Assembly: GCA_005222125.1 (NCBI GenBank)
Contig: CP029202.1
Span: 806,001 to 870,000 of the forward strand
Reading direction: 5' to 3'
Length of the DNA stretch: 64,000 nucleotides
DNA from: Spiroplasma melliferum
GTDB taxonomy: Bacteria > Bacillota_I > Bacilli_A > Mycoplasmatales > Mycoplasmataceae
Shown here: positions 38,251 through 56,721 of the stretch, piece by piece
How the letters are laid out: each line of letters begins with the position of its first letter
Numbering within the stretch: the stretch's first letter is position 1
Notes under the pieces: generated by a model
What the model saw: the letters and a program-made list of their open reading frames with translations, nothing else
Database searches by the model: none
What the model was told of the DNA's origin: nothing
Program-made: the position numbers and the translations under genes

Positions 38251-38259
38251 TAGTCCCTT

Positions 38260-38943: not shown

Positions 38944-38945
38944 AA

Positions 38946-39863
38946 TTATTTCTCCTTCTGGTGAGCGATTCCCACAATATCACTTAAATGCTGTAAATTT
39001 TGTTCTGCACAATATGTTACTAAATCTCTTTTAATTTCTAAAACAAGGTTTGGATTTGTAAATAAACTAGTACCAATCGCAACAATACTCGCTCCCGCCA
39101 TTAAAAATTCTAGAACATCATTGGCAGAACTAACACCCCCCATCCCAATAACTGGAATCGTAACCACACTAGCAACTTCATAAACCATCCGAATCGCAAT
39201 TGGTTTAATGCAAGGTCCACTTAATCCTCCTATAATATTACCTAGCACTGGTCTTTTAGTTTTAAGATTAATCTGCATTGCAGGAATCGTATTAATTAAA
39301 CTAATTGCATCTGCTCCTTCTTCTTGACAAATAATCGCAAATTGCTTAATGTCACTAACTGATGGGGACAATTTCACAATTAATTTCTTTTTTGTTAAAA
39401 CACGACGAACTTTTTTAACTACTTGTCGTGTTACTGTTGGATCGGTTCCAAACAAAATACCCCCTTCTTTAACATTTGGACAAGAAATATTTAGTTCAAC
39501 AAAAGCAATTGCAGCAATTTCATTAATAGCAGTTGCTAATATTTCGTATTCTTCAATTGTTTTTCCATTTAAATTAACAATAATTGGAATCTGAAATGCG
39601 GTAAAGGTTGGAACAATCTTTGCTTTAAAATAATCTAACCCTGGGTTTTCTAAACCAATAGAATTAATTAATCCTCCTGTAACTTCTGCTAATCGCGGTG
39701 AACTATTGCCTAATCGTGGTTCTAATGTAATTCCTTTTGTTGTTAACATTCCTAATTCATTAACAGCAAAGAAGTCCTGGTAACATTCACCATAGCCAAA
39801 AGTTCCACTTGCTGTTGTTAAAGGGCAATTTAAGGTATATCCTAAAAATTTTGTTTTTAACAT
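38946..39863 (-). CDS. pyrD: Dihydroorotate dehydrogenase, catalytic subunit (class 1B)
   Basis: About 305 residues with TTASGTFGYG, SIGLENPGLDYF, LNISCPNVKEG (catalytic Cys in this loop), KLSPSV and GMGGVSSANDV and IGTS at the FMN site. The pairing with pyrK marks the class 1B enzyme that uses NAD+. Two ATGs are in frame: 39875 abuts the SD AGGAAGG with no spacer, while 39863 is 12 nt away; I take 39863, but 39875 is possible. Confidence 0.93.
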   Translation of the reverse strand: MLKTKFLGYTLNCPLTTASGTFGYGECYQDFFAVNELGMLTTKGITLEPRLGNSSPRLAEVTGGLINSIGLENPGLDYFKAKIVPTFTAFQIPIIVNLNGKTIEEYEILATAINEIAAIAFVELNISCPNVKEGGILFGTDPTVTRQVVKKVRRVLTKKKLIVKLSPSVSDIKQFAIICQEEGADAISLINTIPAMQINLKTKRPVLGNIIGGLSGPCIKPIAIRMVYEVASVVTIPVIGMGGVSSANDVLEFLMAGASIVAIGTSLFTNPNLVLEIKRDLVTYCAEQNLQHLSDIVGIAHQKEK

Positions 39864-39886
39864 AGTAATTTTCATCCTTCCTACTT

Positions 39887-40651
39887 TTAATATTCAACAA
39901 CAATGATTGGTCCATCTGTACAAATTTTTTTATTAACTCCATCAATTGTTTTTGTGCATCCCATACATGCACCAACACCACAAGCCATATGACTTTCATA
40001 TGAAATTTGGGTAGCAATTTGTTGCGCTTTTGCTAATTCATTAATTTTTGTTAAAACAATATCTGGTCCACAAGCAATAATTAGTTTGGGTTTTGATTTT
40101 GTTAAATAATTTTCTAAGGCTGTTACAATATTTTGTTGTTGACCAATTGAACCATCATCAGTGTTTAAAAAGAAATTATTATTATCTTGAAATAAAGTTA
40201 CTACATTTAAAGCATCTTTTGTTCGCCCCCCAAAAATAACATGGTATTTTTTTTCTTTTTTAATTAAATCATCAATTAATGCTTTCATTGGTGCAATTCC
40301 AATTCCACCTGCAACAATTAAAATGTCATCTATTGTTGGAGTAATTTGAAAACCTTGACCATGTGGGCCTTGGATTTGAACAACTTGGCCAACTTTTCAT
40401 TGATTAGCCATATACCATGTTCCTAATCCTTTACACTGATAATAAATGCTAATTGTTTCAGCAACTGGATTAATGTCAAAAAAACTAAATGGTCGTTTTA
40501 AGAAAAATTGTTGTTGTGGTTCAACAAGAACAAACTGACCTGAGCGAGCAATTTTACTAAGATGTGGTGCTTTAAATGTTGCTAATCATAAATCAGGACC
40601 CAATTGTTGATTTGACAATAAAATAGTTGATTCAATAATTTGTTTTGTCAT
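39887..40651 (-). CDS. pyrK: Dihydroorotate dehydrogenase electron-transfer subunit
   Basis: 254 residues. An FAD domain with RPFSFFD and YYQCKGLGTWYM is followed by an NAD domain (LIVAGGIGIAPMKAL) and a C-terminal [2Fe-2S] cysteine cluster MACGVGACMGCTKTIDG. It passes electrons from PyrD's FMN to NAD+. The SD GGAGG lies inside the last codons of pyrC, whose stop is 2 bp upstream of this ATG. Confidence 0.95.
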
Positions 40652-40653
40652 AG

Positions 40654-41916
40654 TTATTCCTCCTTTAAATGATATATTTGACCTTGATAAACATTAATAA
40701 TGGGTCATCCCGTTAATTTTTCTCCTAAAAATGGAGTATTTATTGATTTTGATTGTAATAACTCTGGGGTCACAACTTTGCTTAACGATAAATCAATCAC
40801 TGTAAAATTAGCATAATTATTAACCTCTAATTGAACATTATGATGTTTAATTAATTGCTGTGGATTAACTGTTAAAGCATTAATAATAGTTGATAATGAC
40901 ACTTGTTGTGGAAGCACTAACTTTGTATATAATAATGGAAATGTTAATTGTAAACCTATAATTCCCATAGCACTATTTGCAAACTCACCTTTCTCCCTTG
41001 TTTGGTGTGGAGCATGATCAGTTGCAATAACATCAATTATGCCCTCATTTAAAGCTTTTATTAAACTTAATTGATCATTTATCCTATTTAAGGGTGGATT
41101 CATTAAATAATTCCCATCATTTGTTGTAATATCATCAACTGATAATGTTAAATGATGCGGAGTGACTTCACAAGTTAAAAATGGATTAATTTTTTTACCT
41201 TTGCGAATTAAAGCAATACTTTTAGCTGTTGAAACATGACATACATGATAAGGTAATTGCTGTTTATTAACAAGTTTTAGATCATTGTGTAATGGTTCGG
41301 CTTCATAATTATCATCAACACCAATTAATCCAAACTTTTGGGCAATTTGGTGCTGCAAAACAACTGTTTGTTCATTTATATTTTGACGATTATCAACGTG
41401 CAATGAAATAAGTTTTTGGTTTGCTTGACCATATTCTAAAGCCTTAATTAATAAAGATTGATTTGCTAAATAAACCCCATCATCGCTAAAACCAATAACA
41501 TCATCCTTGATTTTTGCAAAATCAACCAATTCTTGACCAGCTAATTGTTTTGTAATTGCCCCAAAAAATTGAACATTAATTGGTAATTTCGCTGCTTTAA
41601 CTAATAATGGTGCTAAAACAGCAATATTATCAATTGCTGGCTTTGTATTCGCCATCACACATACTGTCTGATAACCACCATATAAACCACTATTTGCTCC
41701 TGTTATTAAATCTTCTTTTGTTGTTTGACCAGGTTCACGAAAATGAGCATGTAAATCAATAAAACTAGGAACAATGAGACAATTTGCTGACAACTTAATT
41801 TCTGTTCCCAAAATAGTTGGACCAATGCGCATAATTTTATTTCCTTTAATCGTAATATTTGTTTGTTTGAAACCAGTTGGTAAATAAACGTTGGCGTTAG
41901 TAAAAGTATAAATCAT
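40654..41916 (-). CDS. pyrC: Dihydroorotase
   Basis: 420 residues of the amidohydrolase fold: zinc ligands in DLHAHFREPGQ, HVDNRQN, HVSTAKS and IATDHAPH. It cyclises carbamoyl-aspartate. A TGA (Trp) near the end extends the frame by 17 codons to a stop 2 bp before pyrK. It should follow pyrB directly but is now separated from it by viral DNA; the AT-rich region immediately upstream of its ATG is a perfect 79-bp tandem duplication. Confidence 0.94.
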
Positions 41917-41942: not shown

Positions 41943-42100
41943 ATTAACTAACACAACTGCACATCATTAAAATAAATATTGCAAAATTTAAAATAATATA
42001 TTACAATCAAATTAACTTTCAATTAACTAACACAACTGCACATCATTAAAATAAATATTGCAAAATTTAAAATAATATATTACAATCAAATTAACTTTCA
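41943..42100. repeat. Perfect 79-bp tandem duplication upstream of pyrC
   Basis: 41943-42021 and 42022-42100 are identical by eye. They sit at the virus/pyrC junction and would supply duplicated promoter-like AT-rich sequence to the pyrC-E genes. Confidence 0.9.
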
Positions 42101-42106
42101 AATATA

Positions 42107-42187
42107 AACACTTAATTATATTGAAAGTTTCAAACTATTTATAGTTTCCTTGGACGGAACTTTTAAATGTAATTTAGTGTTTTTTTA
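42107..42187 (+). other. Structured viral element with CCTTGGAC hairpin, before rep
   Basis: Outer arms AACACTTAATTAT and GTAATTTAGTGTT enclose GTTTCAAAC and the inner hairpin GTTTCC-TTGGAC-GGAAC (42144-42160), then a T run. It ends about 20 bp before the rep start. A second copy is at 43571-43648. Confidence 0.65.
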
Positions 42188-42207
42188 TTTGGAAGGAGTT
42201 TATAAAA

Positions 42208-43137
42208 ATGAATAATGTTTTTATTCAAGATAATTTAACAAATAAACGTCATAATGTATTTATGAATGCTTTAAATTATGTTAAAAAAGAATATTATTTA
42301 AAAAAAGTGTTTTATGGTAATTATGTTAAAAATATTGTTTTACCGCTAGAATTAGTTAATAATAATCCTCGTAATAAAATGGGAGTTAAAAATACTGGAA
42401 AAAATGATAAAAAATTGTGGAATAGTCGTATTCGCTCGCAAGGAAATTGTATTCGGAAAGCATATGAAAATTTTTGAAATTGTAAAAATTTAAGTTTTTT
42501 GACTTTAACTTATGCCGTTAATGAGAAAGATGTTAAAAAATGTAAAAATGATTTAAAGTTATTTTTTAATAATATAAATCGTTGATGAAACAATCCTATT
42601 CGTTCTAAAAATCATAAAGGAATTTTAAAATATATGTATACTTATGAGTATCAAAAACGCGGAGCAGTTCACTTTCATATCATATTAAACCAAAAAATAC
42701 CTAACAGTGTTGTACAACAATACTGAAAACACGGTATTAATAAAAATATTAAAGTTCGTGCAGGTTCTAATGAAGATGTTGTTAAATATCTTGCTAAATA
42801 TATTGTTAAAACTGCTAATAATGATAAGTCCCAAAATCATTATGATTTAAACATTAAAGCGTATCAATTTAGTAAAAATTGTAAAAATCCAAAGGTTAAA
42901 GTCGGTGTTATTGAATTATCTGAACAAGATTTAATTTATTCAGTTAAAGATAACTTAAATTATTTTTCTTTTTGTGATAAAAATGGTTATAAAATTGGTT
43001 TTAGTTGTGATAGTTATTATGGTTTAGATAAATTTAGAGAATTTAAAAAATATGTTTCTGCTGATAGAAAAATATTTAGAAATTTAGTTAAAAATACTAA
43101 TTTTACTGTTAATAAAAATACCAATTTAAGGTGTTAA
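42208..43137 (+). CDS. Plectrovirus replication initiator (HUH Rep)
   Basis: 309 residues when TGA is Trp. The metal-binding HUH motif is GAVHFHIIL at residues 157-165, and the catalytic-Tyr motif is VVKYLAKYIVK around residue 195, the arrangement of rolling-circle Rep proteins. It should nick the viral origin to start single-strand replication. RBS GGAAGGAG precedes the ATG. First gene of the viral plus-strand module. Confidence 0.9.
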
Positions 43138-43217
43138 AAATAGTTTATTCGTTCAATTTCGAAATTGAATGTACAAACTTGTTAATTCAAATACGTATTT
43201 GAAGGGAGATTAATTTT

Positions 43218-43418
43218 ATGGCAGATAGAGATGTTAAATGTAAAGAATGTGGCAAAATTTGAACTTTTACTACTAAAAATACAACTTATAATAGTTTTAG
43301 GGGTTTAGCAAAAGATACTATGATATCTTATGGTCATTATTATTTTTGCCCTGATAATAATTGTTTAGGTATGTATAAACATCGAAGACAGGATAATTGT
43401 TGTATTCATAAAAAATAA
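43218..43418 (+). CDS. Small viral zinc-ribbon protein
   Basis: 66 residues after SD GAAGGGAG. Cysteine pairs CKECGK and CPDNNC form a zinc ribbon, followed by a basic Cys-rich tail (KHRRQDNCCIHKK). Probably a DNA- or RNA-binding viral protein. Not visible under the standard code because of an internal TGA (Trp). Confidence 0.75.
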
Positions 43419-43478
43419 AAAAATGAGTTAAAAACTCATTAAAAAATGTGGCAATTGCCTTGGACAACAATTACCACA
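43417..43478 (+). terminator. Two adjacent hairpins after the zinc-ribbon gene
   Basis: AATGAGTT / AACTCATT with an A-rich loop, then TGTGGCAATTG (43447-43457) and CAATTACCACA (43468-43478) with loop CCTTGGACAA. The second loop repeats the CCTTGGAC motif. An A tract of 17 follows at 43492-43508. Confidence 0.65.
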
Positions 43479-43530
43479 AATTAATTAAAACAAAAAAAAA
43501 AAAAAAAACAAGTTTAGATTTATATTTTAT

Positions 43531-43558
43531 TTGACAATTTCAATTTTTGTTGTATTAT
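43531..43558 (+). promoter_or_regulatory. Viral promoter
   Basis: TTGACA and TATTAT separated by 16 nt, upstream of the second structured element and the 43788-47323 gene series. Confidence 0.65.
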
Positions 43559-43570
43559 TGAATTAACTTA

Positions 43571-43648
43571 AACATTTAATTATGTTTGAGTTTCAAATCT
43601 TAAAAGGTTTCCTTGGACGGAACTTAAATATAATTAAATGTTTTTTTA
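43571..43648 (+). other. Second structured CCTTGGAC element
   Basis: Arms AACATTTAATTAT (43571-43583) and ATAATTAAATGTT (43629-43641) enclose GTTTCC-TTGGAC-GGAAC (43607-43623), then seven T. It resembles 42107-42187 in order and in all three parts; downstream, AAGTTTCAAACC recurs near 43726. Confidence 0.65.
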
Positions 43649-43787
43649 TGCTTATTTATAAACTTTATTTAAACAAAAAACACTAATTTTTTATTATAAT
43701 TTTTAATTAATCATTTTTTATATTTAAGTTTCAAACCTGAAATCTTTTAAGAATCTATATAGATTTTTAAAAGAAAGGAGAAATCTT

Positions 43788-44135
43788 ATGAATGGATTTC
43801 TAGTACAGTTGATAGATATTGCAACGGGTAAAATTATTAAAGATGACAAAGGTAATGAAAGTAAATGAGATAGTTATACATTTACACCAGTTATTAAATT
43901 AGAAAATGGTACTGTTAAAGGTACAAAAGATTTGTCAAAATCAAAATGATTTAAAATAACTGATGAAAATTATTTAGAATTAAAACCTTATTTAATTGAT
44001 GGTAATTTATTTTATGTTTCGCTTAAATGGGATGGAAAAATTAATATTGTTGAACCATATACAGAAAATTATAACGAGCAAGAATTCATTAACAAATATT
44101 CTAATAATTCATCAATAACAGAAAGCAATAGTTAA
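43788..44135 (+). CDS. Viral protein, candidate ssDNA-binding protein
   Basis: 115 residues after SD AAAGGAG. It starts MNGFLVQLIDIATGKIIKDD, is beta-rich with many Lys and aromatic residues, and ends in a polar Ser/Asn/Glu tail, a layout common to single-strand-binding proteins. Position between Rep and the coat gene fits an inovirus gene V-like role. No motif proves it. Confidence 0.6.
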
Positions 44136-44136
44136 T

Positions 44137-44268
44137 ATGAAACAACAATTATGTATTGTTTGTATTAATGATACTGTTTGAGAAAATGGATCTCGTTATT
44201 GTTGAAATTGTGTTAATGAAAATGTTATTTTAATTAATCAATATTATTCTAGGTTAGAAAATGACTAA
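44137..44268 (+). CDS. Small viral zinc-finger protein (43 aa)
   Basis: Starts 1 bp after the preceding stop. CIVC and CWNC pairs 18 residues apart form a likely zinc site. Two TGA (Trp) codons. Coupled translation with the upstream gene is likely. Confidence 0.65.
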
Positions 44269-44295
44269 GAAAAAAACAGATTGTTAAGGTTATAA

Positions 44296-44412
44296 ATGGC
44301 AAAGAATAAAGATAAATTGATTATTAAATTAGAAAAATTAATGTTAAGGTCATATCCAGTTTCAGCAGATGAAATTACTAATGAACATTGAGCAATAGTA
44401 AAGAAAAATTAG
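44296..44412 (+). CDS. Small viral protein (38 aa)
   Basis: MAKNKDKLIIKLEKLMLRSY followed by a short acidic stretch. Weak SD (TTAAGG). Ends 1 bp before the next start, in a tightly packed gene string. Function unknown. Confidence 0.5.
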
Positions 44413-44413
44413 A

Positions 44414-44641
44414 ATGAAAAAGCAAACTAAGTTATATAAACAACGATTAAAATATTTGGTTAATGTTATACATCAATGTTTACCTACTAAAATACCATTA
44501 TTTATGTTAAGAAAAGTAATTAAGTTATATCTTAATCATAATGTTATTGATATTGGTGTTATGGAAGAACAACATTTTAAGTTATTAGTAGAACAAGTAA
44601 AAAATTATATGTTAAAAATAGAAAGTGAGAATCAAAAATAA
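44414..44641 (+). CDS. Small basic viral protein (75 aa)
   Basis: MKKQTKLYKQRLKYLVNVIH at the N-terminus; helical and basic, no membrane segment. Its stop overlaps the next start (TAATG). Could bind nucleic acid; not recognised. Confidence 0.65.
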   Translation: MKKQTKLYKQRLKYLVNVIHQCLPTKIPLFMLRKVIKLYLNHNVIDIGVMEEQHFKLLVEQVKNYMLKIESENQK

Positions 44642-44829
44642 TGGATATAGTTGCTATGATTTTATTAGTTTCAATAATTATTTTATTGTATATTTATGTT
44701 ATTTCTTCTATGTTTTTTGATAAAAGAAAAATTAAAAAAGATAAATTACAAAATGAAAAATTAGAACTTGAAAATGAGAAATTAAAGTTAGAAATTAAAG
44801 ATTTAAAAAATAAGGAGAGTGATAATTAA
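44641..44829 (+). CDS. Viral membrane protein with coiled coil (62 aa)
   Basis: One N-terminal hydrophobic helix (MILLVSIIILLYIYVISSMF) followed by a Lys/Glu-rich coiled coil (KLELENEKLKLEIKDLKN). Start and stop overlap the neighbours by one base (TAATG), indicating coupled translation. A minor coat or assembly role is plausible. Confidence 0.7.
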   Translation: MDIVAMILLVSIIILLYIYVISSMFFDKRKIKKDKLQNEKLELENEKLKLEIKDLKNKESDN

Positions 44830-45011
44830 TGACTGTTTTTGCAACAATTATTTTAATACTATCAATGTTTATGTTATTAATATTTTTAACAGTAAGTACA
44901 GTATTTAAGATTAAAAATAAATATTTAATTTGTCCGCATTGTTCTAAAAAAGTAGAATTTAAAGAATGGGGAAAACGAAAAATTAAAAAAGCAGATAAAT
45001 CTGTTGAATAA
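44829..45011 (+). CDS. Viral membrane protein with CPHC finger (60 aa)
   Basis: One hydrophobic helix (TIILILSMFMLLIFLTVS), then ICPHCSKKVEF and a basic tail (GKRKIKKADK). A single Cys pair could bind metal as a dimer. Function unknown; part of the coupled string. Confidence 0.7.
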   Translation: MTVFATIILILSMFMLLIFLTVSTVFKIKNKYLICPHCSKKVEFKEWGKRKIKKADKSVE

Positions 45012-45028
45012 GTTAATATCAATAAAAT

Positions 45029-45102
45029 ACCTTGGCAAGTATAAAAATTGATTTTAGTTTTTAGTGTTAATTACTAAAATCAAGGTTAGAGATTGCCAAG
45101 GT
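45029..45102 (+). other. Nested stem-loop before the coat gene
   Basis: Outer arms ACCTTGGCAA (45029-45038) and TTGCCAAGGT (45093-45102); inner arms TTGATTTTAGT and ACTAAAATCAA. Located 40 bp before the coat gene. Candidate transcript-processing or packaging structure. Confidence 0.7.
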
Positions 45103-45398
45103 TTTATTATTAATAGAAAGTATTTTAAGTGAGGTGTTGTTAATGAATGCAAATTTTTTAGCAGAAGGTACTAGTCCTGACGCAAGTGTTATTAAGCAAA
45201 TAGCAGATTTTGCTGGTGTTCTTGCTGATTGGGCGATTGCTTTTACTAACTGATTTATCGGTTTTTTAGGGTCACATATGTTATTAATTATTCCGTTAGT
45301 TTTAATGTTTGTGGTTTTAGGAATTGAAACAATCAGAAAGTTAATTCACGGATATTAATATTTAATAATAAACTCTAACCTTGATTTTAGTAGTTAAC
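45066..45398. repeat. 26-bp inverted repeats flanking the coat gene
   Basis: 45066-45091 and the complement at 45373-45398 match at 25 of 26 positions (GTTAATTACTAAAATCAAGG here; GTTAACTACTAAAATCAAGG in the complement). The coat gene lies exactly between them. Confidence 0.85.
45143..45358 (+). CDS. Viral major coat protein (71 aa)
   Basis: MNANFLAEGTSPDASVIKQI begins a short acidic/polar N-terminus, an amphipathic stretch with two Trp follows, then a hydrophobic helix (LLIIPLVLMFVVLGI) and a basic tail (RKLIHGY). This is the layout of filamentous-phage major coat proteins. SD GAGGTG. Position between small proteins and the Zot-like ATPase agrees. Confidence 0.85.
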
Positions 45399-45420
45399 AT
45401 TTAGGAAAGGAATAAGAAAA

Positions 45421-45579
45421 ATGCAAAGTGTATGAGATTTATATTATGAATTTATGACTATTATTTTTGGAGTTAATCACCCTATTATTTTAGATATTGT
45501 TATATTTGTTGTATTTTTAATACTTGTTTTTGGTTTATTATTTTTAATTTTAAGCTGTATTTTTAGGTGGATAAAATAA
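45421..45579 (+). CDS. Small viral membrane protein (52 aa)
   Basis: One long hydrophobic helix (IVIFVVFLILVFGLLFLILS) after a short acidic N-terminus, basic end (FRWIK). SD AAAGGAAT. Stop overlaps the next start. Probably a minor coat protein. Confidence 0.7.
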
Positions 45580-45788
45580 TGGACTGAAATATTTTTTTGC
45601 AACGAGTATATCGAGGTCTTTTACAAATTTTTTATTTTATTCCAAAAACTGAAATTGATAATTTTGTCGGTAGTTCTATTGATAATATTACTTATTCAGT
45701 AATTATGATAGGTATTTGATTAGTTGTTTTTTTCCTAATTTGGTTATCAATATTTATTTTATATAAAACAATTAGATTGGTGGTGTAG
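45579..45788 (+). CDS. Small viral membrane protein (69 aa)
   Basis: MDWNIFLQRVYRGLLQIFYF, a polar middle and one hydrophobic helix (VIMIGIWLVVFFLIWLSIFI). Overlaps the upstream stop (TAATG). Minor coat or assembly protein likely. Confidence 0.7.
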
Positions 45789-45790
45789 AC

Positions 45791-46801
45791 ATGTTTAAAA
45801 TTTATTTTAATTTATTTAGAAGACAAAAGAATATTAAATTTTCTTATTGATTTGTAAATTGATTTATAGCAAATATTTTATTTTATCTTTTTATTGTTTG
45901 TTTTAATTTACAGTTTATATATTTTAGTTCTACATCAGTTACTGATATTATCCTTTTTATTTTTTTAGTAATTTTTGATATTATCTTTTTTTGGTCTTTT
46001 TTTAGTAATCTTTTTCAAACACGAAAATTGATTAAAATTATTAAAAGTAGTCCAATATCAATTATTAATGGTGCTTTGGGTACTGGTAAAACTTTATTGA
46101 TGACTTATTTATCGCAAATTGCTAAGTTTGACAATGTTTATTCTAATTATTTTATTAATGATGAAAAAATAGGAGTTTTAGGTTTAAATCATTTAGATTT
46201 TAAAAATAAAAATTATAAAATACCGCCAAATGATAGTTTAATTTTGTTTGATGAAATATTTTTGTATATGAATGGTGCTAAACCGGAAGAAAATAATAAA
46301 AAGTTTAGCGGTTTAATTCCATATTTTTTGTTATGTCGTCAGTTTGATAATAATATTGTTTTTGCTGGACAACGAATTAATCAAAATTGAGTGGAATATA
46401 GAGAGATTGCTAATATGATTATTGTTCCTATGCAGTGTATTAAACCTAGTATATTTTTTCCTTATTTTAAAATGAAAATAGGTTTTTTTGATGACTTAGA
46501 TGATTATTTAGTATGAAAAACAGAAACAGTTAAACGAACAGCAAACGGTAAAAGAGTTCGTAAAAAGTCTAATAAAGATATTGGTATTAATTTTGTTAAG
46601 ATAACAATTCCTTTGTCTATTGCTATGCAATATGATAGTAAATATTTAAAATTTGTGCGTGATTTAAAAAATGATAAAGTACCAAGTTATATTAAACAAA
46701 ATTGACCTAGTATTGTTAAAAAAGATATTACAATTAATGAATTACGAGAAATGGGTATGGAACATTTATTAAAGAATTTGGGGGAATTAGAAAATGATTA
46801 A
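45791..46801 (+). CDS. Zot-like virion assembly ATPase
   Basis: 336 residues. Two N-terminal hydrophobic helices (FVNWFIANILFYLFIVCFNL; DIILFIFLVIFDIIFFWSFF), then a P-loop GALGTGKT with LIKIIKSSPISIING before it, and a Walker B-like LILFDEIFLY. This is the pI/Zot family that drives filamentous-virus extrusion through the membrane. Five or more TGA (Trp) codons. Its last codons overlap the next gene by 8 bp. Confidence 0.88.
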
Positions 46802-47087
46802 TTTACTTGCTAATGATGTATGAAATGGTGCCATTAATGTTGTAGTCGATATTTTTATGAAAATTATGGATTGAATGTGAGCATTAAAATTGCCTGGTAC
46901 AAATATTCCTTTATTTGTAATTTGAGTAATTGGTGGTGTTATAAATGTTATTTTGTTATTAGTTAATAGTTCTCGTGGTTTAAGTTCAGTTTCTCGTTCA
47001 TCTTTACAAGCAAGTAAGCAAATATCTAAGGGGGTTAAAAATATAAGTAATGATTCTAAAAGTGATAATAAGGAGAGTAATAAATAA
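46794..47087 (+). CDS. Viral membrane protein (97 aa)
   Basis: MINLLANDVWNGAINVVVDI at the N-terminus, a hydrophobic helix (PLFVIWVIGGVINVILLLV), then a Ser/Lys-rich basic tail. Overlaps the ATPase gene by 8 bp and the next gene by 1 bp. Probably a minor capsid or assembly protein. Confidence 0.7.
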
Positions 47088-47323
47088 TGATTAAGTTAAT
47101 ATTTTTCTTTGTTATTGGTTTAACTGTTGGTTTTGGTTTTATTGCTAATATTGTTATGGCAACAGATTTAGGTTTTTCAACTGTTAAACATTATTTAGAA
47201 TCTGCTAACGATTTTTATAAATTGGTAGCACATTTATTTATTATTGCGACACATCCTATTTTTCAGTTATATATTGCGTTTGGAATTATCATTATGGGAA
47301 TTAGACTTATTTTTATTGCATAG
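47087..47323 (+). CDS. Viral membrane protein (78 aa)
   Basis: Two hydrophobic segments (LIFFFVIGLTVGFGFIANIV and LYIAFGIIIMGIRLIFI) around a short amphipathic region. Coupled to the preceding gene by TAATG. Minor coat candidate. Confidence 0.7.
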   Translation: MIKLIFFFVIGLTVGFGFIANIVMATDLGFSTVKHYLESANDFYKLVAHLFIIATHPIFQLYIAFGIIIMGIRLIFIA

Positions 47324-47335
47324 GAGGTTAAAACA

Positions 47336-47788
47336 ATGCGAAAACGATTATTAGATGTATTTATTGTTTTTTATTTAATATTTGGTTGAATATTTCTTTT
47401 TTGTGGTACTGTAACAACTAATAATTTTAGCAATACCTATAAATTGTATTTAAAAAATAATGATACTTTTAAAGAATTAACTTATGACAAAGCAAATGAA
47501 TATGATTTTCAGTCTACTTTAATGCTACGACAAGACTATTTTATGCAAGGTTTAGATCCTAGTAATTATGCATTTAGTTTTGGTATTAAATTGGGTGGTT
47601 GAGATGGTTTAAGTGCTGATAAAAATGATAATAATTATTGATTTAAACTTTTTACAACAAATTATAGGAGTTATGAAATTACTTGAAATTCACAAGATAT
47701 TTCAAAGGGATGACAAGGAAAATTAATTTTAGATAATGATAGTACTGGTAGATTTTTAAAAATTATTGTTTATAAATGTAAATTGTAA
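47336..47788 (+). pseudogene. Large viral capsid protein gene, 5' fragment
   Basis: 150 codons beginning MRKRLLDVFIVFYLIFGWIF after SD GGAGG. The frame ends in a stop made by the boundary of the inner mobile block at 47777. The 3' part of the gene resumes at 53387. By position this is the minor capsid/adsorption protein. Confidence 0.75.
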
Positions 47789-47807
47789 ATGCAAGTAGAA
47801 AAAAATC

Positions 47808-48803
47808 TTATATTTTTATATTAACATATTTTTTAATAAAATTGACAAAATAATTTTTTGCTGAATTTCAACTTAAACACTGTCGTGGGCGTTCATTAAT
47901 TATATTAACTATTTCATCATAATATTCTTGTGAATAAACATCTAAATCTATTCCTTTAGGAAATCAATGCCTTAAATCCCGGTTAATTCGTTCCACAATA
48001 GGTTTCTGAGTAGGTTTACCTTTATCACAAAAATAAACTTTAGTACCAATATAAGCTTCAATTTGTTTTCATTCTGAAAACTCTTTACCTTGATCAGTTA
48101 TAATACCTTTAACTATTTTCTTTAAGATATTAGTTTTAAAAATACTTTTAATAACTCTAATTACTTCGTTTGGTGTTCTATCTTTTAATTTTTTTACAAT
48201 TTCAAATTTAGTTAATTGTTCAGTTAAAACCAAACAAACAGATTTAAAATCTTTACCAACTATTGTATCCATTTCAAATCAACCAAATTCATTTTTATTA
48301 TGTTTAGCTTCTGCAATAGTTCGAAAATTACTTAATTTACCTCGATTATCAATATTTTGTTTACTTTTATTTTTTCGACCGCGAAAATACAAATTACGTT
48401 TATTTAAACCAAATAAACCAAGAAAAACATACTTATATAAAGTTTTAAAACACACCGGAAATTTGATACCAAATTCACGTTTATATGCATAGCAAATAAT
48501 CTCGGGCGACCAATGAAACTTATTAAATTTTTCATCTAATCACATTAATTGTTGATATGAAAATTTAATATGCTTAACTGATTTTTTACGATTTTTAAGA
48601 TACTTTTTATGAGCTTTAATAGGATTATATTCTTTTAACTTTTGAAAACGTTTAACTTCATTTCAAATTGTAGATACACTTCTTTCCATATATTTAGCAA
48701 TTTTAAATAAATTTGGTTTGCCATTTTTCTTTTGAAATAGTTTTGATACTAATAACTGACTTAATATAACACGTTCATCAATACTGAAATGCTTATAATT
48801 CAT
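47808..48803 (-). CDS. IS30-family transposase
   Basis: 331 residues. N-terminal HTH (FKIAKYMERSVSTIWNEVKR), then the DDE core: FEMDTIVG (D), GIITDQGKEF (D) and QKPIVERINRDLR (E). RPRQCLSWNSAKNYF near the end is a typical IS30 tail. Transposases of this family occur as a normal gene of several SpV1-type viruses. The left inverted end lies 20 bp past its stop. It appears full length. Confidence 0.93.
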
Positions 48804-48875
48804 TATTAAATACCTTTCTAAAATTTTTTGTTATAATTATTACATATTTTTAATAAAGGAAGGAATAAGTTAAAA

Positions 48876-49322
48876 ATGAAAAAGTTACTAAGTATTTTAG
48901 GGGTATGTGGACTAGTTGGAATGTCAGCAAATTTAACAGCTTGTGATAAACCTAATAACAATGAAAACGGGGGAAATAAACCAAAACCTAATAAACCACA
49001 AGAACCACCAGTTGGAAGCAAATGAAAGTTAATTGATATACATAGTTCTGATTGAATATCTAATAATGAATTTCGTAATAATAAAAATAAATGATATATA
49101 ATGTTTGCCAAAAAACGAAATACTAATAATTTTAATTTTATTAAATTTAAAAATGATGATATTAATAAACCATGAAGTCTTGGTGATGAAGGTAGTTTTA
49201 ATATTTCTTTAAAAGGTGAATGATATTGATTTAATTGATTATACCGTTGAGATGGAAACAGTGAACCCCAAATACCAACAGTTGACAATAAAACAGGAAA
49301 AATTACAGATTGAAAAGAATAA
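48876..49322 (+). CDS. Lipoprotein carrying a copy of a viral capsid-protein domain
   Basis: 148 residues. Residues 1-24 form a lipoprotein signal (MKKLLSILGVCGLVGMSANL, TAC lipobox) very like Spiroplasma lipoproteins. An Asn/Pro/Lys-rich linker (NENGGNKPKPNKPQEPP) follows. From WKLIDIHSSDWIS to IPTVDN the protein is the same as residues of the decayed viral capsid gene at 49342-51562; the DNA (49023-49291) matches 50765-51033 without indels. SD AAAGGAAGG. The product should display a viral capsid domain on the host surface. A role in superinfection exclusion is speculation. Confidence 0.85.
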
Positions 49323-51033
49323 AAGGACTAACAAGTCCTTTTTATATTAATCTCACAAATTTCATAAAAATAATTAATAAAAATATATTTGTTATTGTAT
49401 TATATAATGCTGGACTAAATTTTCATACCTCAAATGTCTGATTAAAAAAACTATATATTGTTTGAAAAATCTTACCAACACCACTTGCTAACTCATTCAC
49501 TTGTTTTACACCAGGAATATTATTAACAACTCATATTGCTGCATTTCTAATATGGCAAGCAATATTATATCAACTACAACTTTCATACTGTGCTTGTCAT
49601 CATTGACCGTCAGGGAATAATCCACCATTATTAATTTCTTGTCAGTTATAGATTCCAAAATTAAAATCATAATAACGATACATATCATTTTCTTTTTGAG
49701 CTTGTAATTCAAAAACATTATAACCAATTTTTTGTTCTTCAATTTTTTTATATTTTAAACCATATTTGTCTTTTAAAGCACCTTCAAAAACATAACCCTC
49801 ATTTTGATTAATATTATAATCATTTGCAACGGAAAAATCATAATTAAATACATTACCATAATTAGTACTATAAAAACGATTTTTATAAGCAGAATACAAC
49901 TTGATATCTAATTGATTATATTTATCTGAAAAATAAAAGTAACGTGGATAAATTTTAAAACCATTATTCGCTAATAAACCATATTTTTTATTATAACCTT
50001 GAACATAAGTATTATTTTCTAAGTCAAAAATGGTTCGTAAATAATCCTTATAAAAATTTTGCGAAACTGTAAACATACTATTTAATAACTTTTCAAATTG
50101 ATTTTTATTGGCATTATTTTTATCAATTAAAACATCTCTAAAATTAACTAATTTTAAACCAAAAAAGTTAATTAAAATCGTATCATATTGTAAATTATTA
50201 ACATATCCACTTTCAATAAAATTACTACGATTTTGAAATACTGGAACTAAAGCATGAGCAAAAAAAGCTTTTAAAAATTTATTAATATCAATTTGTCCTT
50301 TCATATGTTCAAAAACAACTTTACCAGTATTAGGAGAATTACCCTGATAATAATTATATGTTTCAGCACTAAAATTAAATGTATTTTCTTTATCTTTCAT
50401 AAAAGAAAATAAAAAACCTAAATCATCAGTATACCGATAATTATTATAATCATATCCATTTCAATATTGTTTAAAATGTGTTAACTCTAAACTCCCAGCA
50501 ATAATATTTTTTCGTTCATCAATCGTTAAAATCATTCGATAAATTGACTTTTTAGTTAAAATTGTACCAGTACTAGTTTTATCTAAATTATTAATAATTT
50601 CAAAATCAAAAATAATTCTTTGACTACCTAAATTTGGATCATCATAATCAGGGTTACCACCTTGTTGAACTCGAATATTTTCTTGCACAATAACATTAAT
50701 ATATTTTAATAAAAAAGAACGAGTATTTTGATATTGATTATCAGTTCAAAAAATAGGATTGCCATTATTGTCAACTGTTGGTATTTGGGGTTCACTGTTT
50801 CCATCTCAACGGTATAATCAATTAAATCAATATCATTCACCTTTTAAAGAAATATTAAAACTACCTTCATCACCAAGACTTCATGGTTTATTAATATCAT
50901 CATTTTTAAATTTAATAAAATTAAAATTATTAGTATTTCGTTTTTTGGCAAACATTATATATCATTTATTTTTATTATTACGAAATTCATTATTAGATAT
51001 TCAATCAGAACTATGTATATCAATTAACTTTCA
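49023..51033. repeat. 269-bp inverted duplication shared by lipoprotein and capsid gene
   Basis: 49023-49291 (plus) equals the complement of 50765-51033; the two translate identically over about 85 residues in more than one frame, so nearly every base must match. Confidence 0.9.
49318..49343. terminator. Bidirectional terminator between lipoprotein and capsid gene
   Basis: Stem AAAAGGACT-AACA-AGTCCTTTT, directly at the ends of both convergent genes. Confidence 0.85.
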
Positions 51034-51562
51034 ATCTTGAAATTTTAAATTAACTATCTGTAAATTATCAACACCCTTTTCTAATTTATTAATAACTTCA
51101 ATAGTATTAAAATATTTTGCAAAAGAATAAGAAAAATTAGTTAATTCTTTTAAAAATTGTTTTTTATCAACATCATAAAATTTATCAATGTTATATTGTT
51201 TAGCATAAGTATCTCAATTTTTATATAAATCCATAAACTCATCACTAGGCTTGTCGAATGAAATTCCAGTTGAATAACTATCTTTTAAAAAATCTAAGTA
51301 TCATTTATCATTATAAATTAATTATTGTGATGTTTTTAATGTTGGGTTAATAAAATAATTTGTTTCTGACCAGTTTTCAAAAAAAAGTACTACGTAAAAA
51401 CATTGTATTAATAAAATCTGTTTCATTCATTCCTGTTGCTTGCTGTTTAACAGTATAATTTTGCTGATTTAATGGTTTAAAAGCAGTTAAAGTAATCAAA
51501 GGAATAATTAAACCTAAAATTCCTAAAATACCAACTGCAAATAAAGATAAAGATTTTTTCAT
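49342..51562 (-). pseudogene. Large viral capsid protein gene, decayed second copy
   Basis: Starts MKKSLSLFAVGILGILGLII (signal-like) after AGGAG and ends with a hydrophobic C-terminus (NIFLLIIFMKFVRLI). The frame is broken by an extra base in an eight-T run at 51379-51386 and then by an in-frame TAA near 51325. The remaining 650 codons are intact, including NAAIWVVNNIPGVKQVNE, which matches NAAIWLVNNLPGMKDVYN of the outer virus gene. It is homologous to, but not the same as, that gene, so a second virus is represented. Confidence 0.8.
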
Positions 51563-51585
51563 ATAAAATACTCCTAACTATCAAT

Positions 51586-51697
51586 TACTTTTGCTGTTAA
51601 CTGGCCATATTAAATACCATATCACCTCCACAACAAAATACAACATTGTTTATTACACTTTAATTTTTAAAAATATGGCCAGTTAACAACAAAAGTA
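51586..51697. repeat. 26-bp inverted repeat upstream of the decayed capsid gene
   Basis: 51586-51611 and 51672-51697 match at 25 of 26 positions (TACTTTTGCTGTTAACTGGC and complement). The 60-bp loop contains, on the minus strand, GGAGGTGAT followed by ATG and a seven-codon frame. Confidence 0.85.
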
Positions 51698-51713
51698 ACT
51701 TAAAAAATATTAT

Positions 51714-52184
51714 TTATCACATAAAATTAAAATTTCTATATTCCCGATAACGTCTTGGCAATTTAAATTTTCTAACAGCATTATAAACAATTATAACATT
51801 GGGTAAATTTAATTTTTCAATAATTTCACTAATTTTAAATCCTTTTAAATACATTTCTTTAATCTCATCATAAGGATATTTACTTCGATATTTAGGAATA
51901 GTAATAATTTTATCCAGCTGATCACAAATTCCATTTTCACAATCAAAACGATAACCTTTACGAAATTTAAAAGAAGAATTTCATAAATAAACCATACGAA
52001 TTGGAACATTATATTTCTTACTAATTTCAGAACATGACAACAAATTAAGAAAAAAATCTTTCAAACAACTAATAACTAACTCATCAGAATACTTTTGATT
52101 TCAATTCTTTTTTCTAAGTCCTGTTGCATCATAATATAAAGACCCATATGTTCCAAATAATGAATTATTAATTTTATTTAACAT
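51714..52184 (-). CDS. Viral DNA-binding (HTH) protein
   Basis: 156 residues, basic. Two helix-turn-helix-like segments: ISKKYNVPIRMVYLWNSS and ISEIIEKLNLPNVIIVYNAV, the latter followed by RKFKLPRRYRE. SD TAAGGAG. Two palindromes sit upstream of its start (52210-52268), which suggests an autoregulated repressor or a transposase accessory protein. Belongs to the inverted inner virus segment. Not recognised as a known family. Confidence 0.7.
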
Positions 52185-52209
52185 AATTAAAAACTCCTTA
52201 CTGTAATAA

Positions 52210-52268
52210 ACATTGGTATACTAATGTAACTTAATTCTTGTTAAATAAACATTGGTAATAACAATGTT
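52210..52268. promoter_or_regulatory. Two operator-like palindromes upstream of the HTH gene
   Basis: ACATT-N8-AATGT (52210-52227) and AACATTG-N7-CAATGTT (52248-52268), 26-85 bp before the HTH protein's start codon. Confidence 0.55.
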
Positions 52269-52368
52269 AAATATATAAAATCAAAAATTAAGGCACACTG
52301 AAAATAACTACTTAGTTTTAACTAATAGCTATTAAAATATAAAATTATATGTTTATAATTAAGTTGAT

Positions 52369-52628
52369 ATTTTTACACTATATACTGCCTACAAGTTTTT
52401 GAAAAAAGAAATACTTTTTACAACATTATTTCTATTAAATCCTACTAAAAAATATTTCATAATAGACTCAATATTATGAACAATAAACAATATAAATGTA
52501 ACTACTATTGGCGATATAGTCATATTTATTTCCACAACAGGATTTTTCATCTTGTTAACATTATCAATAATAACCAAAATAATTAAATTTATTTAAAAAT
52601 AAATTTGTAGACAGTGTATAGTGCAAAA
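52369..52628. mobile_element. 260-bp element with imperfect 30-bp inverted repeats
   Basis: TACACTATATACTGCCTACA (52373-) and the complement of TGTAGACAGTGTATAGTGCA (52604-52623) agree at about 17 of 20 positions; outside them GGCACACT (52292) and AGTGTGCC (52668) form a further pair. The interior has only a short minus frame (52389-52577) with a hydrophobic stretch and no SD. Reads as a small non-autonomous element or IS remnant. Confidence 0.55.
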
Positions 52629-52708
52629 ATAAACAACAAAATTATTTATTCAATTCACATAAAAGCTAGTGTGCCATAGCTAAAATATATGATCAGTTGT
52701 AATAAATA

Positions 52709-52957
52709 TTAAAATCCTTTAACCATAACACGGAAAAAGTTTAAAATCTTAATAATTACAAAAATTCCAAATGGAATCAAAATAATTCACGCATCACCTA
52801 AAAAGGTCATTAATTGTGGTAACACAGCATAAACAGCGTCTTTAACTTTTGTCATAGCTTGTCCTAAACCACTTCAAATAGAATCCATTCCACCTGAAAT
52901 AGTAGGAGTATCTGCAGCTAGAAAATTAACAGCTGTTGTTAAATACATACCTAACAT
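52709..52957 (-). CDS. Second viral major coat protein (82 aa)
   Basis: MLGMYLTTAVNFLAADTPTI, then an amphipathic segment ending in a hydrophobic helix (WIILIPFGIFVIIKIL) and basic tail (FRVMVKGF). The layout is that of a filamentous-virus major coat protein, but it is clearly different from the 71-residue coat protein at 45143. TGA (Trp) codons hide it. Coupled to the upstream 49-residue gene by TAATG. Confidence 0.75.
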
Positions 52958-53106
52958 TATTTATTTTCCTCCTTATTTTTAATCTCTTTCTTATCTTTTT
53001 TCTTTCCTCGAATTTGGCGAATTTTTTGATAAATTGATAAACCAATTCAAGCAAAAATACCTAATATAATAACAACACTAAATATTGTCGTTAATCAAAC
53101 TGGCAT
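52957..53106 (-). CDS. Small viral membrane protein (49 aa)
   Basis: A hydrophobic helix ([20 protein letters not shown]) followed by a strongly basic, Lys-rich tail. Preceded by AGGAGG. The tail includes the SD of the following coat gene, whose ATG overlaps this stop. Confidence 0.7.
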
Positions 53107-53130
53107 AACTTAATTCCTCCTAAAAATTTA

Positions 53131-53220
53131 ACTTGCGCGGCACGCTCCGCGTGTTCGCTACGCTCAAAATAAACAATATTGAATAAATTACCGCTAATAA
53201 ATTACGCGGATAATTTATTC
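53131..53220. other. GC-rich hairpin cluster in the inner virus segment
   Basis: CACGC-TCC-GCGTG at 53141-53153 within a GC-rich island, and GAATAAATTACCGC / GCGG(A)TAATTTATTC (53181-53194, 53206-53220). GC-rich hairpins are exceptional in this AT-rich DNA; possible replication origin of the inner virus. Confidence 0.6.
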
Positions 53221-53301
53221 ATTTTCTTTTACATTATTAGTTACTATCTTATTAACAGTAATAATAACATTATCTTTTCCATACTTAGTTACTAAGGACC
53301 G
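53215..53301 (-). pseudogene. 3' fragment of a viral gene
   Basis: 28 codons, RSLVTKYGKDNVIITVNKIV and then TNNVKENE with stop; no start. Its 5' part is cut off at the IS-end repeat beginning near 53303. Confidence 0.5.
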
Positions 53302-53302
53302 C

Positions 53303-53385
53303 AAAATAAAATAATGTTTTCTTTCCATTAAAAAAATCAACTCCTTTCAAAGTTGATTTTTTTCTGCTTCATATTACAATTTACA
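53303..53385. repeat. IS-end repeat, second copy of the miniature element's right end
   Basis: About 83 bp similar to 7269-7351, including the AAATCAACT / AGTTGATTT hairpin and the terminal TTACAATTTACA. Confidence 0.75.
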
Positions 53386-53386
53386 A

Positions 53387-54349
53387 AATAAAATAAAATA
53401 TGATTTTATTTTTAATATAGATATATTTGAATATTTATTTTTTCCTATTGTTTCCAATCAAAGTTATAGACATTTTGATTTGAATTATTTAATTTTTAAT
53501 TCTAATTATAAAAATTTAATTAATATGGATATTATTAAAAATTCTAATTCTCAATATTTTATTAATGATGTTAAGCAAGATAATTTTTCTTTGGAAAGTT
53601 TTTTTCAAATTTTAGATTATTTTTATTCTAATATTTTAAGAGTTATATTTGATATTTCTAATTTTAAAGAATTTATTTATTTTAATTCTTCTAACGAGAA
53701 TACTGGTTTTGCTTTTTTTGTAAAAAATGGTTTTTTATTATATCCAAAATCAATGCTTTTTAATATTTTAAGATTCCCTGATTTATCAGCAACTTATTTA
53801 AACCCAATAGTTAATTTATATAATGCTTATAATATAAATGTTAATCAAAATTATTATTCTTTTTTTTCAAATTGACAATATCAAACTGATATTTTGCCTT
53901 CTAATAATGATAAGTATACTCAATCAATAAAATTATTAGATATGACAGATAAATCAAAATATCAAGGTTTTAATTTGATTACTTTTAATGCTATTAATAT
54001 TGGTAAAGATAGTTCTATTTCAGTTAATGGTTTTAATTTTAGCCTTTATAATGCTACTGATTGAAATAATGAAATTAATAATGGTAATATTTGACGAATA
54101 CCATATAAAAGTTGTAGTTGATATAATTTAGCGTGTCATATACAAAATGCGGCGATTTGATTGGTAAATAATTTGCCTGGTATGAAAGATGTATATAATT
54201 TTATTAATGGGATAGTACATGTATTTAGCAATGTGTCTGAGTTGTTTAATAATATTGGTAATTTATTTGCCTTTGATATTACATTTAAGATTATGTTAAG
54301 TTCTATTTTAGTGTTAGCGATGGTTAATGGACTTTTACGCTATTTTTAG
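53387..54349 (+). pseudogene. Large viral capsid protein gene, 3' fragment
   Basis: About 320 codons open from the inner block's boundary (NKIKYDFIFNIDIFEYLFFP onward) to a stop at 54347. It includes SCSWYNLACHIQNAAIWLVN and a hydrophobic C-terminus. Matches the 3' half of the decayed copy at 49342-51562. No start codon. Compared with that copy, a central part of roughly 100 residues seems to be missing between the two fragments. Confidence 0.75.
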
Positions 54350-55322
54350 TAGTAAAAATAATGTTGTTAAGAAAAAAAGTAAGGTGGTGCGATGGTTTAT
54401 CACGCACCACCTTACTTAAAGGGGTAAAAGTCGCGGAGCGACTTAGGGGCAACGCCCCTTTACTTGATAAGGCCATTCGTATAAAAACCCCATTTGCCAT
54501 TTGTTCAAATATTTTTGCTTGTTGACATTCAACAACATCATCATCAATTTCAATACCACGATTAAAAGGTGCTGGATGCATAATAATTGCTGTTGGTTTC
54601 ATTGTTGCAACTAATTCAGATGTTAACTTATAATTTCGTAAATAATCTAAATGATATTTTTCATCAGCATGAAATCGTTCAAACTGATAGCGTAATAACA
54701 TTACAACATCCATTTTCGGCAAAGTTGCTTTAAAATCAACAGGTGTTACACCAGGTAATTGTAATTCATTAATTCATGTTGTATAAACATTCATTCCTAA
54801 TTTTTGCATAATTTGAATATTAGTTTTTGCAACTCGTGAATATTTAATATCTCCAACAATTATAATATTTAATCCTTTAAATTCACCAAAATGTTCTTTA
54901 ATTGTTAACAAATCTAATAAACTTTGGGTTGGATGATTTCCTGACCCATCACCACCATTTAAGATTGGGATTTTAATTTTATTAGCAAGTTGATGATAAT
55001 AATTATTTTCTGGATGACGAATAACTAAAGCATCAACCCCTAACGCTTCAAATGTTTTAACTGTATCATATAAAGTTTCTCCTTTTTTTGTTGCACTAAA
55101 TAATTCATTAAAATTTAATGTTTTACAACCTAATTTATGTGCTGCAACATCAAACGAATAATGTGTTCTTGTTGATGGTTCGAAAAAAAGATTTGCCACA
55201 ATTTTTGTTTGTTGATAGTTTACTTTTTTTTCATTATTTTTAAATTGTAATGCTGTCGTCAATATTCCATGAACATCATATTCAGTTCAATTTTCTAAAT
55301 TAAATAAACTTTTATTTTTCAT
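54324..55322 (-). CDS. pyrB: Aspartate carbamoyltransferase with virus-encoded C-terminal tail
   Basis: 332 residues. The carbamoyl-phosphate motif is FFEPSTRTHYSF, with GGDGSGNHPTQSLLD, DVVMLLRYQFERF and MHPAPFNRGIEI. It commits aspartate to pyrimidine synthesis. After GVFIRMAL the homology stops and 50 residues are read from viral hairpin DNA (SSKGALPLSRSATFTPLS...). Native PyrB probably ended about eight residues after RMAL (INNILADN), a sequence found just before pyrC. Whether the tailed enzyme is active is unknown. Confidence 0.9.
54377..54459. other. Three GC-rich hairpins at the viral end
   Basis: 15-bp stem AAGTAAGGTGGTGCG / CGCACCACCTTACTT (54377-54391, 54403-54417); AAGTCGC-GGA-GCGACTT (54428-54444); AGGGGC-AAC-GCCCCT (54445-54459). 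Candidate single-stranded-virus replication origin or packaging signal; it is also translated as the pyrB tail. Confidence 0.8.
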
Positions 55323-55360: not shown

Positions 55361-55412
55361 AAAAAAACTTACTTAATTAATAAGATAATTTCCAATTAAT
55401 TAAGTAAGTTTT
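55361..55412 (-). terminator. pyrB attenuator
   Basis: Perfect 18-bp stem AAAACTTACTTAATTAAT (plus-strand 55364-55381) and complement (55395-55412), followed on the minus strand by a T run, 39 bp upstream of the pyrB start. Confidence 0.9.
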
Positions 55413-55526
55413 AAAATTATGGGGAGAGAATAAAATTAAGCACAAATAAGAAATAAAAACAATGGCTTTTTGTAACAAAAGTCTAATGTTATTTTTCACA
55501 TAATTGTTCTGATTTGTCATTTGCAT
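55377..55526 (-). CDS. Putative pyrB leader peptide (49 aa)
   Basis: Frame starting MQMTNQNNYVKNNIRLLLQK after AAGGTGAT and ending ...INWKLSY inside the attenuator stem. The upstream part is U-rich (FISYLCLILFS region). A ribosome translating to the end would cover the 5' arm of the terminator. This is the geometry of E. coli pyrL-pyrBI attenuation, where coupling of transcription and translation at a U-rich pause senses UTP. Not proven here. Confidence 0.55.
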   Translation of the reverse strand: MQMTNQNNYVKNNIRLLLQKAIVFISYLCLILFSPHNFKTYLINWKLSY

Positions 55527-55608: not shown

Positions 55609-56721
55609 TTAAAATTCTGATTGTGTCATTGAATTAATGCCCCCACCACCAATAATTATTTCGCGTGCATAAATAGGAATTACTTTCCGCTTTGGAAAAC
55701 ATTTTCGTAATACCATAATTGCTTTTTGATCATACACTGGGTCACCAAAAATTGGACAAATTAACGCTTTATTGACAAAATGAAAATTAAGATAACTAGC
55801 GGGAAGGCGGAAACCTGGCATTCGGTGTTTAAAACGTAAACTACATTCACGATCAATTGCTTCTCGTTGTGTTAAAAATAATGGAATTGGTTGATAAATT
55901 TTAGTAATTTTTAGTTTTCGTCCTTTGGCATCAGTTGTTGATTCTAACAATGACAAAGCTTCTACACTTCGTTCATACTGTGGATCATCTTTATTGTCTG
56001 TTCATGCTAATAATACATGTCCTGGCTCAACAATTTGAAGTAAATTGTTAATATGACCACACGCTTCATCATTATATAGTCCGCGCGGAATTCAAATAAT
56101 TTTTTTAACATTTAAATATTGCTTTAAATATTGTTCAATTTCAAGTTTTGTTAAAGTCGGATTTCGATTAGGGTTTAATAAACATTCTTCTGTTGTATAT
56201 AATGTTCCTTCTCCATCAACATTAATACTCCCACTTTCCAACACCAATGGACAAACATAATAATCAACACCACTAGTATTGGCCATTGTAATAGCCACTT
56301 TATTGTCCACATTATAGTCTCATTTAAAATTTTTTGCTTTTAACATTAAACTATTTTGCATTCCTCAGCCATTGAATTCAAAACTAACCGCACGGTGTTC
56401 TCCATTTTCATTTACTAAATAAAGTGCTCCTATATCACGCGCCCAACTATCATAATAATGTGTTTTTATTAAGTTAATATTACTATTTGCTAGCATTTTT
56501 TTAACTCGTAAGTAATTCTGTTCATTAACAATCATTTGGACTGGTTCATAATTACTAATAATTTTAGCAACTAATGCAAAAATTTTTTGCGCGGGAAAAG
56601 CGTCTTTCTGTCAATTGTCCTTCATATGCGGTCATATCATTCAAGTTTGGATGTGATTGCTTGTTTCTCCTGGTAAATAAAACCCATCTTCTTGCGGAGT
56701 TGTTGTTAATAATTTACTCAT
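55609..56721 (-). CDS. Agmatine deiminase homologue lacking catalytic residues
   Basis: 370 residues with the full AguA-type scaffold: [62 protein letters not shown] and RLPASYLNF. In the enzyme family the last motif is usually GGNIHCITQQ with the catalytic Cys; here it reads [14 protein letters not shown] is GSIN and GHID is GHINN. With Cys to Ser and two His/Asp changes it is unlikely to hydrolyse agmatine. The reading frame is otherwise intact, so it may have another role or have recently lost activity. Several TGA (Trp) codons. Confidence 0.85.

Follow-up and report, generated by a model that had tools for sequence, protein, structure and literature searches.

A leader reading frame ending inside a terminator precedes pyrB in Spiroplasma melliferum and suggests translation-coupled attenuation of pyrimidine genes

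In Spiroplasma melliferum the gene pyrB, encoding aspartate carbamoyltransferase, is preceded by a short leader open reading frame (ORF) that runs into an intrinsic terminator, and this leader is likely to be a pyrBI-type attenuator in which transcription is coupled to translation; its dependence on UTP and the suppression of the terminator in vivo are inferred, and nothing has been measured. What the sequence itself establishes is the anatomy, conservation and frame of the leader, where its stop codon lies, that PyrR is absent, and that the layout is restricted to pyrimidine genes. The window, that is the whole stretch of 64,000 nucleotides that was analyzed (G000:C3:806001-870000), belongs to a Spiroplasma genome of 1.41 Mb in which TGA is read as Trp, and coordinates given below without a contig name refer to it.

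All parts of the pyrB leader are encoded on the minus strand. A consensus scan located a sigma-70-like promoter at 55575-55548, with TTTACA as the -35 element, a spacer of 16 nt and TAATAT as an extended -10 element with TG (TGGTAATAT), implying that the 5' UTR is short (roughly 15-20 nt); this promoter aligns and is kept across five genomes (G000, G001, G003, G009, and G010). The Shine-Dalgarno sequence (SD) of the leader ORF, AGGTGAT at 55538-55532, is a 7-nt match, and its AAGGTGA is invariant in five genomes. The leader ORF itself (55526-55377; MQMTNQNNYVKNNIRLLLQKAIVFISYLCLILFSPHNFKTYLINWKLSY) comprises 49 codons, from the ATG at 55526 to the TAA at 55379-55377. Directly before the terminator stem and within the ORF lies a U-rich tract (55409-55468; 52% U and 17% C), which is the proposed pause region. 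The 60 nt preceding the stem contain 52% U vs. 28% in the first part of the ORF, a U content matched by 336 of 20,000 codon-order permutations. The terminator, and putative attenuator, extends from 55412 to 55360 and consists of an 18-bp stem followed by U8, with the leader stop codon sitting in its 3' arm (55381-55364). Because the stem is A+T-rich, it was missed by a scan for GC-rich terminators. When a minus-strand stretch of 246 nt spanning the leader was folded, a free energy of -48.3 kcal/mol was obtained (z -3.6; none of 200 shuffles as good), and no structure competing for the terminator arms, i.e., no alternative antiterminator, was encountered in this fold. The pyrB gene follows at 55322-54468 (NF002032, 325 bits at a cut-off of 263), with its 3' end cut. 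The initial annotation had claimed the order promoter, SD, 49-codon ORF and 18-bp terminator before pyrB, with the frame ending inside the terminator, and all of this held; it had placed the U-rich stretch in the middle of the frame, and the stretch that we found is the second half of the ORF.

Directly upstream of the pyrB promoter lies aguA (agmatine deiminase; 55609-56721), which could possibly tie the breakdown of agmatine to the supply of carbamoyl phosphate; carAB was not seen in the pyr operon.

Within the 64-kb window, the pyrB terminator is the only gene-proximal one with such an ORF. However, in one genome 8-20% of dinucleotide shuffles retain an open frame of such length, and the open leader frame alone is weak evidence when it is taken from a single genome. 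The layout at pyrB is more than chance because it is conserved in relatives. A pyrB-like match of some kind was obtained in 13 of 14 genomes of the genus, with a full pyrB in five (G000, G001, G003, G009, and G010) and a remnant in G002, and promoter, SD, ORF, and hairpin are common to all five with the full gene. A genome of another genus (G206; genus g12) has a pyrB leader of 39 codons with a 19-bp hairpin, unrelated in sequence and showing the same order of parts, so that the layout occurs at pyrB in five genomes besides that of the window, four of the same genus and one of another. Frame and stem, whose conservation the initial annotation had proposed to check, are thus conserved in all five genomes of the genus with a full pyrB and also in G206.

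Among the five leaders of the genus, the stem follows the ATG at a distance of 112, 118, or 121 nt (differences of -6/+3 nt) and the phase is constant; over all six, the stem starts about 105-120 nt past the ATG and within the ORF. In the leaders of the genus the hairpin arm is open in one frame only, and over the six leaders no stops occur in frame 0 vs. 16 and 27 in the other frames (+1 and +2). The leaders measure 39-53 codons, and in each of the six the stop codon falls within the hairpin. A covariance model of the hairpin region found one site per genome in five genomes plus the G002 remnant, and a covariation check showed little variation of the stem, with one double change. The second half of the five leaders of the genus (g1) contains 52% U vs. 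15-28% earlier, and that of the G206 leader 43% vs. 30% before; the U skew is significant in the former and not in the latter. The leaders of the genus share a short conserved Leu-Phe-Ser-Pro motif, and a comparison of the G009 and G010 leaders gave a dN of 0.05 and a dS of 0.34, the C terminus of the G009 leader being frame-shifted by an indel. In a genome of another family (G260; L048), an ORF of 25-34 codons ending in a hairpin is located 151 to 31 nt before pyrB, possibly an independent case.

A pyrR gene (NF003549) was found in none of the 14 genomes of the genus, nor in G206. Among 320 genomes of the order, pyrR is present in seven (G181, G187, G196, G207, G208, G231, and G233), always directly before pyrB, and in these 320 genomes it was never found together with a pyrB leader. 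The RNA site bound by PyrR (RF00515) served as a positive control and was detected in six of the seven pyrR-bearing genomes, in three above the Rfam cut-off and in three below it by a permissive search (L069 and L077 are one genome). In the leader region of the window, RF00515 gave no match even at E≤5. In the pyrB tree, the leader-bearing genes lie on one side of a branch with support 100/99 and the PyrR-type genes on another; G206 falls among the leader-bearing genes although it is of the same genus (g12) as the PyrR-type G207 and G208. The leader-type PyrB shares up to 58% identity with PyrB of other Bacilli vs. 41-48% with the PyrR-type PyrB of spiroplasmas. By inference, the operon and its control seem to move together, perhaps by gene transfer. 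No obvious leader precedes pyrB in the closest outside relatives (related at class level, with 53-58% identity), two of which reach the Rfam cut-off for PyrR sites. Both systems are present in the genome G207 (L155, L075): its pyr operon carries pyrR together with a PyrR RNA site, and its uracil permease gene carries the leader-peptide layout. The initial annotation had held that a PyrR loop at this site, or a frame not conserved in relatives, would refute its reading; both were examined and neither held, since the loop was not found at the locus even at E≤5 and the frame is conserved in relatives. Nor was a pyrR gene found in the 14 genomes of the genus.

What the initial annotation had missed is a plectrovirus element (SVTS2/R8A2B-like; 41944-54467) of about 12.5 kb, inserted inside pyrB near its 3' end. 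The gene agrees with its relatives up to 54468, from where a chimeric frame runs through the element to a stop at 54324, and comparison with the intact pyrB-pyrC junction in G009 revealed the 3' stub of pyrB (AATAATATTTTAGCAGATAATTAA; about 41943-41918, minus strand) just before pyrC. The rest of the operon (37639-41916, minus strand; Pfam) comprises pyrC (41916-40654), pyrK (40651-39887), pyrD, pyrF, and pyrE (38250-37639), all intact in frame and severed from the leader promoter by the element. In G009, G010, G003, G001, and G206 the order pyrBCKDFE of the leader-type operon is unbroken. Because pyrB is damaged in the genome of the window, the attenuator may be idle there. G002 represents a later stage of pyrB decay: its pyrB is a fragment with stops (a pseudogene), and in its leader remnant (G002:C1:945242-945302; L083, L068) 103 nt have been lost between ATGCAAATG and the hairpin, so the body of the leader was lost where pyrB is dead.

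The layout claimed for pyrB could be extended to the gene for a uracil permease (uraA). In 464 kb of the same genome, we looked for short ORFs with an SD whose end falls within a terminator located a short way upstream of a gene. This loose rule was satisfied by nine of 192 gene-proximal hairpins, with pyrB as the strongest case, and the scan revealed a leader ORF and terminator at L133:8786-8938 (about G000:C3:288786-288938). The gene downstream encodes a permease of 482 amino acids that exceeds the NCS2 cut-off; among NCBIfam models it matches that for uracil permease best, with 320 bits, which is below the cut-off of 477 set for this model. A UraA-type permease is present in 42 of 60 genomes of the family, and most of these 42 have the layout before uraA, in many cases with leaders of unrelated sequence. 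Inspection by eye and with a script identified an SD, an ORF of 20-48 codons and a U tract upstream of uraA; the leader stop lies in the 5' arm of the hairpin, at most 5 nt away from it, or in the 3' arm. Such a leader is present in eight g1 genomes (in G012 with a weakened SD), in G206, G207, G209, and G166, in all seven g7 genomes (about 0.8-0.9 Mb in size), and in thirteen g8 genomes; it is damaged in G004 and G006, and the ATG is lost in G192. No uraA leader was found in G007 and G008, where the permease genes are interrupted by stops. Beyond the family, it occurs in G305 and, by eye and with an unclear SD, in G080.

In thirty uraA leaders frame 0 is without stops, and at least one of the other frames has 23-47 stops per group; this count is, however, partly built in, as the script that selected most of the leaders demands an open frame. 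Some g1 uraA hairpins are weak (about -8 to -9 kcal/mol), and the U skew is significant in several uraA leaders and not in those of g1 or most of g7. No known RNA family of Rfam was found at the pyrB or uraA leaders.

Regarding specificity for pyrimidine genes, the g8 genomes that lack a uraA leader (G181, G185, G187, G194, and G196) are exactly the five with a bona fide pyrB, and three of them carry pyrR. Such a coincidence would arise once in 11,628 if draws were independent; however, the five genomes are probably one clade and it may possibly reflect a single event. No leader was seen in any of the 22 upp regions inspected by eye. When 800 kb of G206 were surveyed, an ORF was seen to end at the hairpin in 10 of 91 gene-proximal terminators. 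Nine of these ten were compared: uraA and pyrB are among them, several others resemble the ends of longer genes, and at least 45% U before the stem was reached only by pyrB, uraA, and one sugar-phosphorylase gene. At G206:C1:707044, a U-rich ORF of 19 codons ends at a terminator before a sugar-phosphorylase-like gene of 1007 amino acids, which may be chance.

The mechanism that we propose is the following. If the polymerase is ahead of the first ribosome, the hairpin would form and transcription would end before pyrB or uraA. If UTP is scarce, the polymerase would slow in the U-rich second half of the leader and the ribosome would catch up. During transcription of the U tract it would then sit on the hairpin's 5' arm, so that the gene would be read. 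The terminator stem lies inside the ORF and the stop within the hairpin, and therefore translation should prevent termination. Suppression of the terminator by translation in vivo is an inference, and so are the role of UTP, and possibly of CTP, in setting the pause and the view of the U-rich second half as a natural site for UTP-dependent pausing. The target genes, which serve to make pyrimidines and to import uracil, point to a pyrimidine signal. The peptide as such seems to be of little importance, since dN/dS is about 0.9-1.0 in uraA leaders and yet start, frame, and stop are kept; a near-neutral peptide fits a leader in which the act of translation matters, though it lends only weak support to coding. 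Purifying selection on the peptide was seen for the pair G009/G010 only and not in uraA leaders. In amino-acid attenuators the terminator is found more than 20 bp past the leader stop, whereas in pyrBI the leader gene contains the terminator (PMC4824070), and Mycoplasma pneumoniae has ribosome-polymerase supercomplexes (expressomes), whereas B. subtilis is reported to be uncoupled (PMC8116511). The suggestion of the initial annotation that UTP is sensed through coupled transcription and translation instead of through PyrR is thus supported, with UTP sensing itself still inferred.

Of the other explanations, the one that survives best, though we consider it unlikely, is a translation-dependent attenuator responding to a signal other than UTP, such as ribosome supply, charged tRNA, or general translation speed. 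In its favor, the geometry says only that translation should block termination and names no signal, and the U-rich codons are those for Phe, Leu, Ile, and Ser, with the Leu-Phe-Ser-Pro motif conserved in the genus. However, no codon run is common to pyrB and uraA leaders or across clades, no runs of Asp or Arg suit the substrates of aspartate carbamoyltransferase, and the targets are pyrimidine synthesis and uracil import. Much less probable is a plain terminator with a fortuitous open frame and no regulation. The genome is A+T-rich, TGA encodes Trp, 8-20% of shuffles stay open, and short ORFs ending in hairpins occur elsewhere (the 9/192 and 10/91 above, several apparently real gene ends). 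Against this, there are no in-frame stops in the six pyrB and thirty uraA leaders (for uraA the rule of choice required an open frame), SD and start are kept, the frame survives indels, and the 103-nt leader body was lost after pyrB in G002. Equally hard to sustain is an unknown trans-acting regulator, protein or small RNA, that acts on the leader RNA with translation playing a minor part. PyrR plays such a role in other Firmicutes and in those relatives that carry pyrR, but no RNA motif or Rfam family is common to pyrB or uraA leaders, the ORF-hairpin overlap persists while the leaders are wholly different between clades, and the fold offers no alternative antiterminator. That the ORF is the gene of a small functional protein and has a terminator of its own, as the dN of 0.05 vs. 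dS of 0.34 for G009/G010 might suggest, is very improbable in view of the variable length (39-53 codons), the frame-shifted C terminus in G009, the dN/dS of about 1 in uraA leaders, and the lack of any sequence common to clades.

A bolder version of the preferred reading, UTP-sensing coupled attenuation, would make it the main pyrimidine switch of the whole wall-less family, in control of uracil import nearly throughout and of the de novo operon in those members that have it, and replacing PyrR in most lineages; this could as easily be wrong as right. If it is true, selection would be using tight coupling of ribosome and polymerase in a branch of Firmicutes descent, though Bacillus subtilis is reportedly uncoupled. 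Few regulators are known from mycoplasmas and spiroplasmas, and the control of their pyrimidine supply is not described in the literature searched. If attenuation by a leader peptide depends on coupling, it would offer a way to read coupling in these bacteria functionally and genetically, and the near-minimal Mesoplasma florum, described as without pathogenic potential (PMC7745072), suits direct testing if its uracil permease gene has a leader of the g7 type. The class of mechanism is already known from E. coli. What appears to be new is that it occurs in Mollicutes, that its use at the uracil permease gene extends across a family, that the stop codon falls within the hairpin, and that it and PyrR replace each other among relatives; no mention of the system was found in the open-access literature searched, and earlier reports in subscription journals are not excluded.

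The closest known system is pyrL-pyrBI of E. coli (L089), in which a promoter, a leader ORF with its own SD and a terminator inside the leader gene are likewise followed by pyrB; pyrL has 44 codons, compared with 39-53 in the Spiroplasma-type pyrB leaders. The U-rich stretch ahead of the terminator is a less certain parallel, being strong in the pyrB leaders of the genus and in many uraA leaders and without significance in others, and by the measure used here the E. coli leader is also without significant U skew. However, the pyrL stop lies beyond the terminator, 3 nt before pyrB, whereas the Spiroplasma leader stops inside the hairpin, where a ribosome at the stop would still cover the 5' arm. 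The attenuator stem is G+C-rich in E. coli and A+T-rich in Spiroplasma, with no sequence similarity, and in contrast to E. coli pyrBI the layout is found before uraA as well, and pyrI is missing from the operon, pyrBCKDFE. PyrR attenuation (RF00515), which the seven pyrR-bearing close relatives use, shares terminator-based control of pyr operons and differs in that neither a pyrR gene (14 genomes of the genus) nor PyrR-binding RNA (leader region of the window, E≤5) was found for the Spiroplasma system. Amino-acid attenuators of the trp and his type share the short leader peptide and terminator; unlike them, the pyrB and uraA leader peptides have no regulatory codon run, and the terminator lies within the ORF, so that translation should prevent and not permit termination. 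Enteric pyrC, pyrD, and upp use transcription start switching or reiterative initiation, which likewise sense nucleotides without a repressor protein.
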